23,978 nt of DNA from IMG/VR virus record IMGVR_UViG_3300033233_000164, positions 1-23,978 of that record; one strand, written 5' to 3'. The translations under genes and the position numbers were made by a program. The notes under the pieces were generated by a model. That model worked only from the letters and a program-made list of their open reading frames with translations. It did not search any database and was not told the origin of the DNA. Positions 1,635 through 23,015 of the stretch are shown here, in pieces (the first letter of the stretch is position 1; each line of letters opens with the position of its first letter). The stretch is from a virus.

Positions 1635-1829
1635 CTAACCTCTATTCTTAGCAATCTCTTCTTTTTCTTTTTGAACATCTCTAAATAACTTACCAATGAT
1701 CATCTTTCTTTCAAAGTCAGGCATATTATTTGAATCAAGTAATCCAATATGACAATGTTTAGCTAAAACGTATTGCTCTTCAACTATGCTATCGATATTA
1801 TCATCAGAACAACATAGTTGAATTAGTCG
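1635..1829 (-). CDS. 64-residue -1 frame extension of the gp26-like gene (frameshift product C-terminus)
   Basis: The frame starting at CGA (1827-1829) runs 64 codons to TAG at 1635-1637. It has no good start of its own: the first in-frame ATG is internal, at extension residue 36, without a clear ribosome binding site. It joins the upstream gene exactly at the slippery heptamer 1829-1835, giving a predicted 311-aa fusion. The extension is Asp-rich at its start and Lys/Glu-rich and helical at its end (DVQKEKEEIAKNRG). Placement between tube and tape measure matches the G/GT tail assembly chaperone arrangement known in lambda and many other tailed phages. Expression by frameshift is inferred. 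Confidence 0.65.
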   Translation of the reverse strand, partial: RLIQLCCSDDNIDSIVEEQYVLAKHCHIGLLDSNNMPDFERKMIIGKLFRDVQKEKEEIAKNRG

Positions 1830-2569
1830 AAAAAATGGTCCAACGGAATACGGTGTACCTCCGTCTTACCACATTTCTTATTAGCACACTTTGTTTCGAT
1901 TTTAAAGTCCATACCAAAATCATGTGCAGACAAACAATTCTTCAACTTCTCAAATGTCTGAACATCCAAACGATTGTTAATAATCTCCATCTTATCCTTG
2001 AATAAGACTTCATTAGAGGTTACACCTTCAGCAGTGAACTCATCCATAGATTGTGCAACACTCATAGTAGTCGCTTCAATCATTTGCTGTTCAAGTGTTA
2101 GCTTAGTACCTTTAACAAGATCAAAAATCTCTTTCTGTTCACCTCTAGTAAGATACTTCATCTTAACAGAAAGTTGCTCACTGAGAGCAATAGTCTCAAA
2201 TACTTCATTGATAGGATTGATCTTTGTTTCTGATAGCTTAACAGACCCAACATTATCCTTCTTACAACCAGAACATCTAAAGTTGTATTGATATACATCA
2301 CCTTTAGACTTCTCTCTTATTCTCATAAGTAAGTAAAATCTATCTTGAAGATATAAATCATCAATATCAAAATCTACATCAAGAACACATGATGTTATGA
2401 TTTCATCTAACATTTCCTCAATAACAAAAGGATCGGTAGAATCTTCATACACCAGCATCTTTTTCATCATACCAGTAGTAAAAGGTTTAAACTTAACAGT
2501 CTCCTTACTTCCTGGCAACTCACAAGTAAATTCATATGGGTTTAAGTAACCCAATACATCTAACGACAT
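1823..2569 (-). CDS. gp26-like baseplate/tail assembly protein with zinc ribbon
   Basis: A 248-aa protein resembling the T4 baseplate family (T4_baseplate, gp26/gp51 type). Conserved-looking features are the FKPFTTGMMKKML segment (about residues 27-39), the acidic region with the DRFYLLMRIR segment (about 76-85), and two cysteine pairs, C99/C102 and C228/C233, likely forming a zinc ribbon. In T4 such proteins help to assemble the baseplate hub. Here the gene lies between tube and tape measure, where tail assembly chaperones sit, and carries a -1 slippery site at its end. The start ATG has the strong site AAGGAAGG. Family assignment is from memory of motifs; exact T4 orthology is uncertain. 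Confidence 0.7.
   Translation of the reverse strand: MSLDVLGYLNPYEFTCELPGSKETVKFKPFTTGMMKKMLVYEDSTDPFVIEEMLDEIITSCVLDVDFDIDDLYLQDRFYLLMRIREKSKGDVYQYNFRCSGCKKDNVGSVKLSETKINPINEVFETIALSEQLSVKMKYLTRGEQKEIFDLVKGTKLTLEQQMIEATTMSVAQSMDEFTAEGVTSNEVLFKDKMEIINNRLDVQTFEKLKNCLSAHDFGMDFKIETKCANKKCGKTEVHRIPLDHFFD
1829..1835 (-). promoter_or_regulatory. Candidate -1 ribosomal frameshift site U UUU UUC
   Basis: On the minus strand the zero-frame codons are CAT TTT TTC GAC TAA, so the heptamer T TTT TTC fits X XXY YYZ exactly and sits one sense codon before the stop. Slipping one base back leads into the 64-codon frame. No strong downstream pseudoknot was identified by eye. Confidence 0.7.
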
Positions 2570-3184: not shown

Positions 3185-4381
3185 CTATTTATATGAATTG
3201 TTTATCAAACCATTTGATCTTAATTCATGAGTACCACAACCATCTATTTGATGTGCTTCTCTATTATGTTTTTCACACAAAGTAACACAATTATCAATAT
3301 CAGCACTTTCAATTGGATTGCATATTACCGGATCAATATGATGACAGGTTAAGTTTTCGGTTTCTCCGCACTTAACACATTTATATCCATCTCGCTCCAG
3401 CACAAGTTTTCGTAATGAAGATTGTAGTTCTCTTGAGTTATCATTATTTATAAAACCTTTGGGATATAATTTTCTCCCATATATAGTGCAGCTATGTTTA
3501 CAAGAATCAGAACAGTAAAATCTACTATCTCCTACCATACCGCCATTAATACACTTTAATCTTTTAACCACACTATCAACGGATGGAATATACCATATAT
3601 CACAATGAACACATTTAACTTCTAATATATTTTCGTCCTCAATGTTTCGTTTTATATCTTCATACTTTTCAAGACGATGCCCATACGTTTCATATAAAGG
3701 TGTTTCTTTATAACCACCCTTCCATAGAGGGCTTTTATCACCTCTATAATCAATAATACCATCTCTCCAAAGACCTTTAGTAATGTCACTTCTTCGTTTC
3801 TTTACTTCTGATGTATTTTCTATATTGCTATATTCTATACTATTATATGTACAGTCCTTACAACAATAATAATTTCTTATATTTATTCTATCATTTTTTA
3901 TATTTTGAATGAAATTAACAATCCTAGTTCTATTAGGAGAATCCCACGTATTACAATTTCCACACTTAACCTCTAAATGACCAATACTACTTTTTCGAGA
4001 TACAACCACATTAGGTAATTTATGAGCATATGTATCATATAAAGCTATTGTTCTCACACCACCTTTATAGTTTGGATTTCCAGACCCCGAGCATTTGTTT
4101 GTTGATTTTTCTCTAAGTATTTGCTTCGCTTCATCTGTATGGTGCCGCCCCTTAAAGGTAGAAATTTTACCATATAATGGACTGTGTTCCCCAACCATAT
4201 ACTCCTGCCGACAATTTGCATCGCAAAAGGGCGAACCGTTATAATTCAATCTCTGAAAACACTCATCACCGCAATTACAACAAACCATCATAGAGTAGCT
4301 ATGATTATTAAATCTCCAATTTTGCTTATTAGGCTTATAAACTATATTATCTAATTCTTTATATGTCTCTGGTATTTTCAT
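3185..4381 (-). CDS. HNH homing endonuclease 1 (between sheath and tube genes)
   Basis: A 398-aa free-standing HNH endonuclease. The N-terminus has a cysteine cluster (CCNCGDEC, residues 34-41), then a NUMOD3-like DNA-binding segment (GEHSPLYGK to AKQILREK, about 64-92). Two copies of an LYxTYxHxL plus EVKCxxC module follow, then a YCSDSCKHSC cysteine pair. The C-terminal HNH fold covers about 335-376 (CVKCG, CHHIDP, NPIESADIDNCVTLC). Its C-terminal core is clearly shared with the HNH genes at 12144 and 22128. Such genes spread by cutting alleles that lack them. The start is supported by AAGGAG six bases before ATG. Its own late promoter and an inverted repeat lie upstream. Confidence 0.9.
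   Translation of the reverse strand: MKIPETYKELDNIVYKPNKQNWRFNNHSYSMMVCCNCGDECFQRLNYNGSPFCDANCRQEYMVGEHSPLYGKISTFKGRHHTDEAKQILREKSTNKCSGSGNPNYKGGVRTIALYDTYAHKLPNVVVSRKSSIGHLEVKCGNCNTWDSPNRTRIVNFIQNIKNDRINIRNYYCCKDCTYNSIEYSNIENTSEVKKRRSDITKGLWRDGIIDYRGDKSPLWKGGYKETPLYETYGHRLEKYEDIKRNIEDENILEVKCVHCDIWYIPSVDSVVKRLKCINGGMVGDSRFYCSDSCKHSCTIYGRKLYPKGFINNDNSRELQSSLRKLVLERDGYKCVKCGETENLTCHHIDPVICNPIESADIDNCVTLCEKHNREAHQIDGCGTHELRSNGLINNSYK
3186..3193 (-). promoter_or_regulatory. Late promoter for tail tube gene, overlapping HNH stop codon
   Basis: TATAAATA on the minus strand, continuing as TATAAATAG in which TAG is the stop codon of the HNH gene. It lies 57 bp before the tube start codon, so the endonuclease gene end carries the promoter of the next structural gene. 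Confidence 0.75.
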
Positions 4382-4543: not shown

Positions 4544-6268
4544 TTATGCGCCAGCAGCAATCTCATCAAATGATGCTCCAGTCTTAGTGGCAATAAATTG
4601 AAGTTGGATGAACTCAGCTGCTTTGGTAGGTTGAATGTAAATACTTACCCACAATTCGTTCCTATCGATCCTCTCGTTGGTATTATTGCTAGAATCAGCA
4701 ATAACTTTGAAGTCATAAATACCTCTACGAGACTTAACATCGCGTAAAAATGGCTCGATCATGTTGATCAGCGTTCTACGAGTAGCAGGATCATTAGGTT
4801 CAAACAAGAAGTACTTGCTTGCAGTTGAAATAGCCTTCTCAAGTACGATGAACAATCTACGCACATTAACTCTATTGAAAGCAGAAGATTTATCAAGAAG
4901 GTTCTTCTGACCCCAAACAACTTTACCCTGTCCAGCAAATGACACAATAGGATTGATACCATTGCTGTATAGTAAATCTCTCTGACCAAGAGTAGGATTC
5001 CAAGCAAGCTTACGAACACCAGTGATAATACCTCTATTTAGACCAGCAGGAGCGAACCAAGGATCAGAAACATCATCATTTCTAGCGTATATTCCGCCGA
5101 CATAACCAGAAGCAGGAACCCATACATACTTTTTAGTGTATCGATTATAAACTTCAAACCAGTTACCATATAGAGCAGCATAGCTAGTATTTTCGTTTAG
5201 ATTCTCACCAGCCCCAATACCTCTACGCCAATTACGAAGATTTACCGCTTCACTACCTCTTTGATTAATAACAGTAGAATATGGACAATCAAGAACAGCC
5301 ATACAGTCTTTTCTTGATTCACAGATAGAAATTAAGTATCTCTTAATTTCTTCAGACTTATCAGCATCGATGAAGATATTAACATCAATCTCTTCAGCAT
5401 TGGCATATAGGTCAAGAGCAGTCATAATATCAGCATCTTGAACAGTATCGCCTTTGTTATTAAGACCCCCACCAAACACCATAAAGTCATCCATAATGGC
5501 CGATGTGATACTAGCTTCAATCATTGAAGAATCTAGCTTCATTCTAATATAATTAGAATTAGAATTAACTTTATTCTCGCAGAAACGAGACTGACCTTGA
5601 TCATCAACAGCACTTTCTACAGTTGACACATTCCAAACCTCTTTGGTTGCCCATTCAGTTTTGTTTTGGTCTTTAGCCTGAATAAGTAGTAAGAAGTCAG
5701 TACTTGATTCAAGACGATTATCAACTTCGCCCCAAGCACCAGAAGTATTAAATGCTTGATATTGACTTCCACCAGAAATCATTTGATTCTGTGTACTGTA
5801 ATCAAGAAGAGAAATCCTAACATTATTACCCCAAGCACCCCTTGAGGAAGCAATAAAATACATATCACCACCTGTTAGAGATTCTGTATCAAATGAATCT
5901 GGATCGCTAGACTCAAGATCATTTAGTGTTAAAGAAGTTGCACTAGTATCAGCGGTGAAGGTATCATTATTAATTGAACCACCGGCAAAGGTAGCAGATA
6001 CCGGCATAACTCTAGTGACATATAGTTTGTTACCATACTTTAAGAAAGCTTCTGCTGAAAGCATGTCTTTATAGCAATTAGCAGATGTAGTCGGATCGCC
6101 AAATGCAGCATTAAGCTCATCTGTAATGGTAACAAGTGTTTGTTTTAACTCTGGGCCTTTATATGTATCCCTAGCAATTAAAACTCCTATTGAGGTTGCC
6201 ACAGATGGTATTGTGACACTCAAATCTATTTCTTGTACATTAACAACAGGTGAAAGAAAAAATCCCAT
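4544..6268 (-). CDS. 18: Tail sheath protein (gp18 family)
   Basis: A 574-aa protein (T4 gp18 is about 659 aa) that polymerises around the tube and contracts during infection. The N-terminus SPVVNVQEIDLSVTIPSVAT and the early AEAFLKYGNKLYVTRV segment are typical. The C-terminal conserved domain contains NRNELWVS-like and GIYDFKVIAD segments and the region around RRTLINMIEPFLRDV, which fits the sheath family. Start ATG follows GGAGATAAT. A late promoter sits 55 bp upstream and a strong terminator follows. The shorter length points to fewer or smaller surface insertions than in T4. Confidence 0.95.
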   Translation of the reverse strand: MGFFLSPVVNVQEIDLSVTIPSVATSIGVLIARDTYKGPELKQTLVTITDELNAAFGDPTTSANCYKDMLSAEAFLKYGNKLYVTRVMPVSATFAGGSINNDTFTADTSATSLTLNDLESSDPDSFDTESLTGGDMYFIASSRGAWGNNVRISLLDYSTQNQMISGGSQYQAFNTSGAWGEVDNRLESSTDFLLLIQAKDQNKTEWATKEVWNVSTVESAVDDQGQSRFCENKVNSNSNYIRMKLDSSMIEASITSAIMDDFMVFGGGLNNKGDTVQDADIMTALDLYANAEEIDVNIFIDADKSEEIKRYLISICESRKDCMAVLDCPYSTVINQRGSEAVNLRNWRRGIGAGENLNENTSYAALYGNWFEVYNRYTKKYVWVPASGYVGGIYARNDDVSDPWFAPAGLNRGIITGVRKLAWNPTLGQRDLLYSNGINPIVSFAGQGKVVWGQKNLLDKSSAFNRVNVRRLFIVLEKAISTASKYFLFEPNDPATRRTLINMIEPFLRDVKSRRGIYDFKVIADSSNNTNERIDRNELWVSIYIQPTKAAEFIQLQFIATKTGASFDEIAAGA

Positions 6269-10608: not shown

Positions 10609-12156
10609 TTAGCATAGGGTAGGAATATACTCATATCCATCATCAATGCCCTGAGCATCATCGAATATTCCCCAACCTTCTTCTTCTAAATTAACATCTT
10701 CAATTCTCATTGATTCGTCAAGAATATTCATTTCGAATATATAGCTTGCCCAATATAAAGCAGAAACCAAGTCATCTGGTTTTCCATTGCCAGAATACTT
10801 ACCGTTTATATCAACAAATGTTAACAATTGATCAACAGTTGGCTTATCAATAATTTCCATTGAACCATTATCGATAAGTTTTTTTAGAAGAAGAACAGCT
10901 TTAAGCTTGCTGGTAGCAGTTGCTCTAATACCTAATTTGGATATTTTCTGTCCTTCATTGACAAGATTGGCATTTTCATGATCCCACCATAAACGAGATA
11001 TTACAGGAGCACCCTCACCATTATTCTCACACATGATATGAGCATTATTATAGTAATAACTTGTCTTATTTATAATATCAGCAAACTTATATGTATCTGT
11101 CATATTGTCCTGAAAAACAGCAACCTGAACCATTTTAACAGGGTTTATTGAGATTATTCTAAATACCTGCATGACAGAATCATGTTCACCACTTCCCTTA
11201 CCACTATCAATACCTAACACATACAATCCACCATCAACAGGAGGCTCAAATATTCTAAATAATCCCTTACCTTCTAATGAAGTGGGGTATACCGTACTTG
11301 CTATCAATCTCCTTAATGTGGCTTCCTCAAGAACAATACTATCGGAGCCAAGGAAGTTGCCACCAAACTCTTGATTGAATCTCCTAATACCAATTGTCTT
11401 TATTTGATCTTCAGCCCACTTCTCATCTCTACCAGGAACATCACGCCAATCTGAGAAAAAATGAACGAAGGTATTTATTTTCTTTTCAGCTTCAGTATAT
11501 AACTGATGAAATAAATTACCAATACCTTTAGGTGTTGATATAACAATAAACTTAGATACTTCTGATTTTGAAATTGTAGGCCAGTTAGAAGTGAAAAACT
11601 CATCACATTTCCATTGAGGTTCAACATGGGCCATTTCATCAGAGCACAAGATGTTGCATGTACGACCTCTGAAGGAGTCTTTTGATGTTGCTCTAGCTTT
11701 TACTGATGTGCCATTTTCAAATACAACAGTCTTTTTGTTATATTCAACAACACCTGGCTTTATAAATGAAGGCAATTCTTCATATATAACCTTCATCCTA
11801 TCGAGAATATCAATAGCTCCTGCTTCATTGTTAGATACAATACCAACTAACTTATCTTCATTGAATATAGAATACCACACTAAATATACGGCGATTGTTA
11901 TTGATTTTCCTGATTGCCTAGAAGAGTTTATTACTATATGCCTGTTATCATGTACTAAATTAAGTATCTTCTTTTGAAACTCATAAGGAATATATGGTAT
12001 TCTTCCCAAGTCAGGATGCACAACCTTAACATACTTCAAGAAGTACATAAAACTCTTCTTACACTTAGCAAGTTCTCTTATTTGATCTGGTGTAAAATCT
12101 TCTTCTTCACCAGGACGCTTTACATATTCATTATAAACTATACTCACTTTACGCAC
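10609..12156 (-). CDS. 17: Terminase large subunit (gp17 family)
   Basis: A 515-aa DNA-packaging motor. The ATPase domain has a Walker A-type loop SSRQSGKS (78-85), Walker B ILCSDEMAH with D173/E174, and the coupling motif STPKG (207-211). The nuclease domain has LGIDSGKG (D317), CENNGEG (E377) and GKPDDLVSA (D461/D462). It pumps genome into proheads and cuts the concatemer. T4 gp17 is about 610 aa; this copy starts near T4 residue 90 and lacks the N-terminal extension. The apparent start is GTG at 12154-12156, inside the end of the HNH gene, with no clear ribosome binding site, so translation may depend on coupling. Confidence 0.93.
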   Translation of the reverse strand: MRKVSIVYNEYVKRPGEEEDFTPDQIRELAKCKKSFMYFLKYVKVVHPDLGRIPYIPYEFQKKILNLVHDNRHIVINSSRQSGKSITIAVYLVWYSIFNEDKLVGIVSNNEAGAIDILDRMKVIYEELPSFIKPGVVEYNKKTVVFENGTSVKARATSKDSFRGRTCNILCSDEMAHVEPQWKCDEFFTSNWPTISKSEVSKFIVISTPKGIGNLFHQLYTEAEKKINTFVHFFSDWRDVPGRDEKWAEDQIKTIGIRRFNQEFGGNFLGSDSIVLEEATLRRLIASTVYPTSLEGKGLFRIFEPPVDGGLYVLGIDSGKGSGEHDSVMQVFRIISINPVKMVQVAVFQDNMTDTYKFADIINKTSYYYNNAHIMCENNGEGAPVISRLWWDHENANLVNEGQKISKLGIRATATSKLKAVLLLKKLIDNGSMEIIDKPTVDQLLTFVDINGKYSGNGKPDDLVSALYWASYIFEMNILDESMRIEDVNLEEEGWGIFDDAQGIDDGYEYIPTLC

Positions 12157-13301
12157 CGCATATCTATTTTTCTACATCCTATTTCACTATGAGAATTTTC
12201 ATGATGAGTAAAACACAAGGTAACACACAAATCCATATCAGCACTTTCTATAGGGTTATATAGAATTCCTTCTAAATGATGGCATATAAGATTTTCTGTT
12301 GATCCACATATGATACACCGATTTCCATCTCTTTCGAGAACCATTTGTCTAAGTTCTGGTTGATCAGCCCTATAGTTATCATACTTGATATTATATCCTT
12401 TCGGCCAAATAGTCCTATTATAGACACTACAATTACTTCTACATTCATCGGAGCAGTAAAAATTATGTTCTCCTTCATCTACTCTACATATGGATTTATA
12501 TCTATTGCTTGATTCCATAGTTGTAGGAATCATCCATTCTTTGCAATGATAGCACCTAACCTTTAGATATCCCCCATCAGTAATATCAATGTCTTCTATA
12601 TATTTAAGCTTTTGCTCATATTTATTATAGCTTGCTGGAAGACCTCTATAAATTTTATTATATTCACTATCTTTTACCATATTTCTCATAAGTCTTCCAC
12701 CATTGACAATACCTATCTGGTGCTTGGTTAGCCCTGTTTTTTCATCTAATACACGCAACCGTCGTTTTATGTTCTCTATCCTATCTGAACACGACCTATT
12801 TTCCCGGGAAAATGGATAATCTTCGTCTTTCATATTTAAAATATTTTTGATATACGATTTCTTTATACTGATGAGCCTAGCACCCAAGATAGGACATGTA
12901 ATAAAAGATTTCCCATCTAAAGAGGAATCAAGATCATATAACATAGAATTTCTAACTAAATTTCTCTTTAAGAACGTCCTAATTTTCTTACCATCCTTTA
13001 TATCATCACTTCCGATCAATCCAGCATAAAATATAAAATTTATTCTATCTGCCTTACTTTTATTTATCCTATCTCTATGTATTGGATTCCTCAGAACATC
13101 ATTATATTTAGAAGAGCAAGACCCACAGCAAAATTCCCCCTTCCCATGCTTCACCAAATCATGACTGGAAAAATATTCTTCATTGCAATATTTACAACTA
13201 TCTAACAAAATAAACTTTGTATATGAGTCTGAAGCAATATAATCAAACCTACCATCACTAAGTAATTTAAAATTATCAATATTATCCCATGTTATTTTCA
13301 T
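12144..13301 (-). CDS. HNH homing endonuclease 2 (upstream of large terminase)
   Basis: A 385-aa HNH endonuclease. The preferred start is ATG at 13299-13301 (MKI, as in HNH1) rather than GTG at 13310; neither has a strong ribosome binding site. The N-terminus has CKYC and CCGSC cysteine pairs, followed by a basic region unlike the other HNH copies (about 60-200). The shared core begins at LPASYNKYEQKL and contains VRCYHCKEW, YCSDECRSNCSVYNR and PKGY. The HNH domain is CIICG, CHHLEG and NPIESADMDLCVTLC. It overlaps the terminase start by 13 bp. A late promoter and a 13-bp inverted repeat precede it. Confidence 0.88.
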   Translation of the reverse strand: MKITWDNIDNFKLLSDGRFDYIASDSYTKFILLDSCKYCNEEYFSSHDLVKHGKGEFCCGSCSSKYNDVLRNPIHRDRINKSKADRINFIFYAGLIGSDDIKDGKKIRTFLKRNLVRNSMLYDLDSSLDGKSFITCPILGARLISIKKSYIKNILNMKDEDYPFSRENRSCSDRIENIKRRLRVLDEKTGLTKHQIGIVNGGRLMRNMVKDSEYNKIYRGLPASYNKYEQKLKYIEDIDITDGGYLKVRCYHCKEWMIPTTMESSNRYKSICRVDEGEHNFYCSDECRSNCSVYNRTIWPKGYNIKYDNYRADQPELRQMVLERDGNRCIICGSTENLICHHLEGILYNPIESADMDLCVTLCFTHHENSHSEIGCRKIDMRCVK

Positions 13302-13317
13302 AATAGACACTAATCCA

Positions 13318-22127: not shown

Positions 22128-23015
22128 TTATTCAGGACAAACATCTCTTCTCATATCGCAATCCGTATGAATGGTATTATGACACTTCTTACATAGTGTT
22201 ACACAGTTATCAATATCCGCTGATTCTATTGGATTAAGCTCTATTCCCTCATAATGATGACAATGTAATGGAGATTCTTCTTTACTCTTATAGCATTTTT
22301 GACAGGTATAATTATCCCTTGCTAATACCAATTTTCTTAATTCAGGTTGCACTTCCCTTGATGTATCTGGCTTAAACCCTTTAGGATACTTTCTTCGATT
22401 ATAGGTGCTACATGATTGCTTACATCCTTCAGAACAATATAAGTTACAATCACCAGTAAACTTTCCTACTATACTACTTATCCTATGGATAACAGATATG
22501 TTAGATGGTATATGATAACAACCACAATATTTACATATACATTCAAGAGATAATCCATCATCTGATAGTCTTGGTGCTTCTTCTACTGTCAATCTATGTG
22601 AAAAAGTTGAATATAGCGCAGGTAAATTAACATATTCCTTTTTATATTCCTTTGTTCTTTCTTTATTATCTATTGCATATTTTCTCTTCTGTTCTCTTAT
22701 CATCTCTTTATTTTTAATACTATATTGTATTTTCTTAACACTACGGCAATCCCTACATTCATTTCGATGCCCATCAATACCATTCACAGCTTTTTCAAAA
22801 TCACTAATAGGTTTTATTTCTTTACAAGTACGACACTTTTTTAATCCACTTATACGCAGTTCGCTATTAATTTTGTCTTCTTCATAATGTTTGTAGAGGC
22901 ACATTTTACATGTACATCTGAAACCATCTTTTTCTTGTGCGTGATTACCAAAATCACTAATAGGTTTAATTTCTTTACATTTACGACATTTCTTGGTATA
23001 AATAGGTTCAGACAT
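22128..23015 (-). CDS. HNH homing endonuclease 3 with tandem zinc-finger repeats
   Basis: A 295-aa protein. Two tandem N-terminal cysteine modules share KKCRxCKEIKPISDF (C10/C13 with C34-C39; C61/C64 with C87/C90), the sort of small finger often joined to phage HNH enzymes. A basic linker (about 95-128) follows, then the core shared with HNH1 and HNH2: LPALYSTFSHRL, CKYCGCYHIPS, YCSEGCKQSCSTYNRR, YPKGF, and the HNH domain with CQKC, LHCHHYEG, NPIESADIDNCVTLC. ATG follows GGAGGG. A terminator-like hairpin and a late promoter stand upstream. Nearly identical finger repeats suggest recent duplication. Confidence 0.9.
   Translation of the reverse strand: MSEPIYTKKCRKCKEIKPISDFGNHAQEKDGFRCTCKMCLYKHYEEDKINSELRISGLKKCRTCKEIKPISDFEKAVNGIDGHRNECRDCRSVKKIQYSIKNKEMIREQKRKYAIDNKERTKEYKKEYVNLPALYSTFSHRLTVEEAPRLSDDGLSLECICKYCGCYHIPSNISVIHRISSIVGKFTGDCNLYCSEGCKQSCSTYNRRKYPKGFKPDTSREVQPELRKLVLARDNYTCQKCYKSKEESPLHCHHYEGIELNPIESADIDNCVTLCKKCHNTIHTDCDMRRDVCPE

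Follow-up and report, generated by a model that had tools for sequence, protein, structure and literature searches.

A conserved -1 frameshift site at the end of a gp26-like gene points to a short and long tail assembly chaperone pair in T4-like phages

Analysis of a 23,978-base virus record (IMGVR_UViG_3300033233_000164, analysed over its whole length and referred to below as the window) revealed a T4-like tail operon on the minus strand, in which the gp26-like gene very probably encodes a short and a long tail assembly chaperone by means of -1 ribosomal frameshifting (we place the probability of this reading at about 0.9). The gp26-like ORF terminates with CAT TTT TTC GAC TAA, so that a single sense codon separates the heptamer T TTT TTC from the stop. 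This heptamer meets the X XXY YYZ pattern and lies in the zero-frame phase needed for tandem -1 slippage. After the slip, the -1 frame reads 64 codons (RLIQLCC...EIAKNRG) to a TAG at 1637..1635, giving a fusion of 247 + 64 = 311 residues; upstream of the heptamer the same frame is closed by many stops. The heptamer and its phase, the open frame and the length of the fusion had all been described in an earlier, sequence-only reading of this DNA, and each was confirmed. The relevant features of the operon are as follows.

6847-6326, minus strand: tube-like protein (phrog_45)
6268-4544, minus strand: sheath
4381-3185, minus strand: HNH endonuclease gene
3129-2608, minus strand: tail tube protein gene, the second tube-like gene (phrog_45, E 1.8e-36; PF06841 gp19, E 1e-8)
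2569-1823, minus strand: gp26-like zero-frame gene, 248 aa, stop codon at 1825-1823 (PF12322, phrog_150)
1835-1829, minus strand: slippery heptamer T TTT TTC (from the sequence)
1822-1779, minus strand: predicted stimulatory stem-loop (RNA folding)
1829-1635, minus strand: -1 frame extension, 64 codons and TAG, gp51-like C-terminal domain (family alignment, profile match to T4-group gp51)
1629-1381, minus strand: 82-aa ORF between the -1 ORF and the tape-measure ORF (position)
1266-1, minus strand: putative tape measure gene, cut by the window edge (position, weak phrog_167 match)

The placement of a gp26-like gene between the tube and tape measure genes, also proposed in the sequence-only reading, was borne out. 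The zero-frame protein matched PF12322 in Pfam (E 1.6e-28; 100.4 bits, cut-off 24.5) and the baseplate hub family phrog_150 in PHROGs (E 2.1e-28), and the gene directly upstream encodes a phrog_45 tube protein. Downstream, past the 82-aa ORF, lies a large ORF tentatively assigned as the tape measure gene from its position and a phrog_167 match with an E of 0.024. A large ORF also occupies this position in relatives, and in HTVC008M and RHph_I1_18 a tape measure is annotated at the corresponding place. The 82-aa ORF matched none of the families in either PHROGs or Pfam; at its site several relatives go straight to the large ORF, and others carry a small ORF.

Two other properties of the region were observed. 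The two tube-family proteins, both of phrog_45, flank the sheath gene. Three genes with HNH endonuclease domains are present within 24 kb (3185-4381, 12144-13310 and 22128-23015); the first two are similar in their C-terminal part and have the tube/sheath genes and a terminase gene as their neighbours.

Conservation was analyzed in 220 gp26 genes with an intact 3' end, namely 57 window-type (window included), 83 P-SSM2-type and 80 S-RSM4-type genes, many of them redundant or close copies. Used alone as the query, the window gp26 detected no related loci among viral or genome contigs, and tblastn against isolated phages gave 11 weak matches. The set was assembled with the window sheath protein with flanks (80 loci, 56 of which, plus the window, had a gp26 with an intact 3' end), the P-SSM2 gp26 (80 IMG/VR loci) and the S-RSM4 gp26 (80 loci), and three isolates were added to reach the total. 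L091, with an in-frame TGA and a contig that ends before the gp26 3' end, and L102, cut before the end, were left out. The TGA of L091 (near position 6264) is located in the middle of the gene with the frame open beyond it, and may represent a nonsense change, a sequencing error or recoding.

An in-frame T TTT TTN was retained in all 220 genes, followed by no more than two sense codons before the stop. The codon preceding the slippery Phe codons varies (AGT, AAT, TCT, GCT, GAT, CAT, GGT) and ends in T in every six-T run. With T-rich codon usage, the heptamer would be expected in roughly two of every three genes: given the amino acids and each gene's own codon usage, the chance of finding it within the final 8 codons averages 0.66. 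Multiplied over 38 representatives that share less than 60% identity, these chances come to 10^-7.95, a conservative figure because the null takes Phe-Phe as given. The same arrangement with the heptamer was found in the annotated isolates KVP40, AS-zj, pf16, OLIVR5, PhiW-14, Atu_ph07, HTVC008M and SH-Ab 15599, and in RHph_I1_18 with the heptamer farther upstream. Heptamer loss in close relatives, which the sequence-only reading had held to count against slippage, was seen in no close kin; the heptamer is lacking only in Vibrio phage D506, T4, Acinetobacter phage 133 (Acj133) and Aeromonas phage 50AhydR13PP, the last three having 26 and 51 as separate genes. D506 is the exception within the -1 arrangement, as it carries a gp51-like -1 ORF (L170, 2670-2860) without a slippery heptamer.

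Alignment of homologues, as the sequence-only reading had proposed, also showed that the -1 ORF (56-74 aa) belongs to one family (gp51, phrog_634) in 220/220 relatives. Its conserved pattern is FF-x-LI-x-L ... EEQY-x-LA ... ISI-x-ESN-x-M-x-DFERE, and conserved residues continue across the zero-frame stop, back to the heptamer. For P-SSM2-type pairs, dN/dS was 0.05 in the -1 frame, compared to 0.97 for the same region read in the zero frame. The -1 frame is thus a real coding domain under purifying selection. Phrog_634 (baseplate hub assembly catalyst) was matched by 32 of the 36 members of the family alignment; the window's own extension gave no match to it at E 0.1 and is linked to the family via the alignment. 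In five relatives with records of 58-204 kb, one copy of the domain was found per record, adjoining gp26. The AlphaFold2 model of the extension is all-helical (pLDDT 91). It had no match in the structure library searched with Foldseek; this absence should not be taken to indicate a new fold.

A canonical -1 signal includes a 3' stimulatory structure at about 5-9 nt, and in bacteria a Shine-Dalgarno-like upstream stimulator is optional. In addition to what the sequence-only reading had described, a strong predicted stem-loop was identified at 1822-1779. It begins 6 nt past the heptamer (spacer GACUAA), a distance that fits this range, and directly follows the zero-frame stop. It is composed of 15 base pairs, a 2-nt bulge, 4 pairs and a 4-nt loop. 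The 76-nt fold has an energy of -20.9 kcal/mol (z -4.25), and none of 200 shuffled sequences was as stable. When the -1 frame was recoded synonymously, none of 200 variants reached the stability of the downstream structure (-17.6 kcal/mol; z -5.47).

The synonymous-recoding test gave strong signals in the P-SSM2-type loci (mean z -4.83; 42/42 below -2) and the S-RSM4-type loci (mean z -3.70; 47/49 below -2). In all three groups the stem lies at the same position, with a different sequence in each; column-wise covariation in the cyanophage stems is small because their pairs are mostly invariant or wobble-limited. Window-type loci were mixed, with z below -2 in 15 of 49 distinct loci, and the 49 nt examined in the closest relatives, L086 and L088, contained no stem-loop (z 0.68 and 0.05). 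For window-type loci with 6-7 T the mean structure signal drops to zero farther downstream. Many six-T loci of this type have strong stem-loops, whereas those with 8-10 T mostly have weak structure, although this relation between T-run length and stem strength is suggestive only (Mann-Whitney P 0.058). A Shine-Dalgarno-like stimulator is absent at stimulatory spacing in the window, where GGAGG sits about 22 nt upstream, while a GGAGG-like element is located 10 nt upstream of the heptamer in 57/61 P-SSM2-type loci. An Rfam search gave a single chance-level match, elsewhere on the plus strand.

The identity of the extension is indicated by comparison with T4, Acj133 and 50AhydR13PP, in which genes 26 and 51 are separate and divergently transcribed. 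Over residues 4-203, a gp51 profile built from these three phages aligned with the gp26 of the same phages (E 7e-11), and residues 200-251 of T4-group gp51 aligned with the -1 domain (hhalign E 3.7e-6); no alignment was obtained between T4-group gp26 and the -1 domain profile. T4-group gp51 therefore aligns with gp26 followed by the -1 domain, i.e. T4 gp51 corresponds to the long form in one frame. In T4 the long form is a separate in-frame gene, whereas in the window the extension exists in the -1 frame only; KVP40 and the cyanophages resemble the window in having no T4-style separate in-frame long gene. The Phe-Phe near the end of T4 gp26 is coded TTC TTT, which is not slippery, and no heptamer is present there. 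The Kyanoviridae (P-SSM2, S-RSM4, S-B68) share with the window the place of the heptamer, the -1 ORF family and a downstream stem-loop, but their gp26 is only about 25% identical to that of the window and their public records show two separate genes.

In a 2016 review, T4 was still named as the phage that departs from the rule of frameshifting in tail chaperone genes (PMC5009743). Genes for the tail assembly chaperones of T4-like phages were later identified by Vladimirov, Gautam and Davidson (2022), as cited in PMC10885494 and PMC12846349; from these citations and the gp51 alignment, we read the genes concerned as 26 and 51. Of the papers citing that work, PMC10885494 states that certain T4-like phages have the short gene alongside a long gene that is a fusion, and PMC12846349 states that the short chaperone genes of T4-like phages are known to contain poly-T slippery sequences. 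The correspondence of T4 gp51 to the long form is in agreement with what these citing papers relate. A conserved -1 frameshift is also described in the tail assembly chaperone gene of the Pakpunavirus Adele, a myovirus, where the slippery motif is GTTTTT and the passages concerned mention no stem-loop (PMC12846349). A poly-T character is what this motif shares with the T TTT TTC of the window.

The sequence-only reading had regarded the zero-frame product as a gp26-like baseplate protein rather than a chaperone, recruited as a frameshifted chaperone or fused to one. This part of it was not upheld: both gp26 and gp51 of T4 are counted among the hub assembly chaperones (PMC3004832), and gp26 itself is probably the short tail assembly chaperone, with nothing foreign fused to it. 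In the AlphaFold2 model of gp26 (mean pLDDT 91) two halves can be distinguished, in which strands and helices follow one another in a similar order. A search of solved structures by Foldseek alone gave no significant match to this model. In a second structure comparison, in which all Z scores were below 8, the best chain was 2ob9 (HK97 gp13; residues 121-217 of gp26, Z 6.2), followed by 3fgx (Rbstp2171; residues 6-98, Z 5.9), and the next rows dropped to Z 3.9 and 2.7. Both 2ob9 and 3fgx are named as phage tail assembly chaperones (PMC9603447). Since a Z of about 6 is moderate, the chaperone fold is supported rather than proven, and the likeness of the model to these chains could reflect a common arrangement. 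HK97 gp13 and Rbstp2171 are short single-domain chains with 8-9% sequence identity to gp26, whereas the modelled gp26 is two-halved; that each half is best matched by a different single-domain chaperone suggests a tandem duplication inside gp26. A PDB sequence search with the gp26 and -1 domain profiles returned only unrelated or designed repeat proteins.

The gp26-like protein also carries four cysteines (99, 102, 228 and 233) arranged as C-x2-C ... C-x4-C, one pair per half, which may plausibly form a single metal site (a candidate zinc ribbon). T4 gp26 has Cys pairs at similar places, but those of the window protein are not conserved in cyanophage gp26.

The heptamer of the lambda G/GT pair is GGGAAAG and thus differs from that of the window. 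In lambda, the G/GT locus lies between the genes for tube and tape measure and gives a short form and, by -1 frameshifting, a long one (PMC5009743). The window gene shares this position, and its 248-aa product is modelled with two chaperone-like halves. Good support for -1 slippage producing a long chaperone form at the G/GT position, as suggested in the sequence-only reading, comes from the conservation of the heptamer and of the -1 frame, the purifying selection, the stem-loop and the in-frame fusion in T4 gp51. We infer that termination at the TAA would be the usual outcome and yield the short form of 248 aa (gp26, TAC-N), whereas the smaller share of ribosomes would pause on T TTT TTC, delayed by the stem-loop, slip back one base and produce the 311-aa long form (TAC-NC). 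The predicted helical domain at the end of this form shares homology with the T4 gp51 C-terminus. If the roles known from lambda G/GT carry over, as the gene position also suggests, the short form may coat the tape measure protein encoded by the next large gene, and the extension may recruit tube subunits encoded by the gene just upstream.

The -1 ORF could instead be a separate small gene (gp51), with a start of its own or with reinitiation coupled to the gp26 stop. In GenBank, gp51 is annotated as a gene in its own right in many cyanophages, an arrangement that the sequence-only reading had named as counting against slippage; on the other hand, T4-group gp51 carries this domain only as a fusion. 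An independent start is possible in P-SSM2-type phages since an ATG occurs there at -1 codon 4, and in D506 an ATG overlaps the gp26 stop (TAATG), possibly reflecting a switch from frameshifting to coupled reinitiation; in both cases the -1 ORF may be translated separately. For the window this is unlikely because the conserved domain begins before any usual start codon is reached: no ATG, GTG or TTG is found before the ATG at codon 36, which itself lies inside the domain. Start codons are likewise lacking in the first 20 -1 codons of 19/57 window-type loci, before codon 7 in 80/80 S-RSM4-type loci, and before codon 19 in 28 of the latter. The retention of the heptamer in every intact-end relative and the conservation of the -1 frame right up to it also argue against a separate gene, an explanation we consider improbable.

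Still less likely, in our judgement, is that the fusion arises from transcriptional rather than ribosomal slippage on the T run. Runs of 8-10 T are long enough for polymerase slippage, and such runs occupy the slip site in 30/57 window-type relatives (e.g. L096, L132, L140, L152, L160 and L165), where this mechanism is possible. It is unlikely in the window because the run has only six T, as it does in 83/83 P-SSM2-type loci and in the S-RSM4-type loci displayed; these loci show the X XXY YYZ phase and, in most cases, a stem-loop typical of ribosomal frameshifting. T runs are common in the region since it is A+T-rich (34% G+C), which might suggest a chance heptamer, a sequencing error or a decayed gene. 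Comparison of relatives ruled this out: the heptamer persists in 220/220 genes with gp26 identity down to about 25%, the -1 frame evolves under the strong constraint given above, and it is homologous to gp51. Ribosomal frameshifting is therefore the preferred reading for the window.

A wider proposal, to which we give slightly less than an even chance, is that T4-like phages originally made the gp51 long form by frameshifting, in many cases aided by a dedicated stem-loop, and that most of them still do, the two-gene layout of T4 being a derived loss. Within this proposal, the short form would be a tandem double chaperone fold unlike the single-domain HK97 type, and lineages with 8-10 T may slip without a stem-loop. 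The principle of chaperone frameshifting in T4-like phages is already known (Vladimirov et al. 2022, as related in the citing papers). Relative to those accounts, the present analysis adds a new member, the breadth of conservation, codon-controlled evidence for the stem-loop and the modelled double-chaperone fold of gp26.

In many public records of cyanophages and related T4-like phages, gp51 is listed as a separate "baseplate hub assembly catalyst". The comparison indicates that a slippage product is the proper annotation for this pair in a large share of T4-like phages, and gp51 would be explained as the long form of the chaperone. The locus would provide a compact natural frameshift signal which, with relatives that possess and lack the stem-loop, is suited to reporter work.
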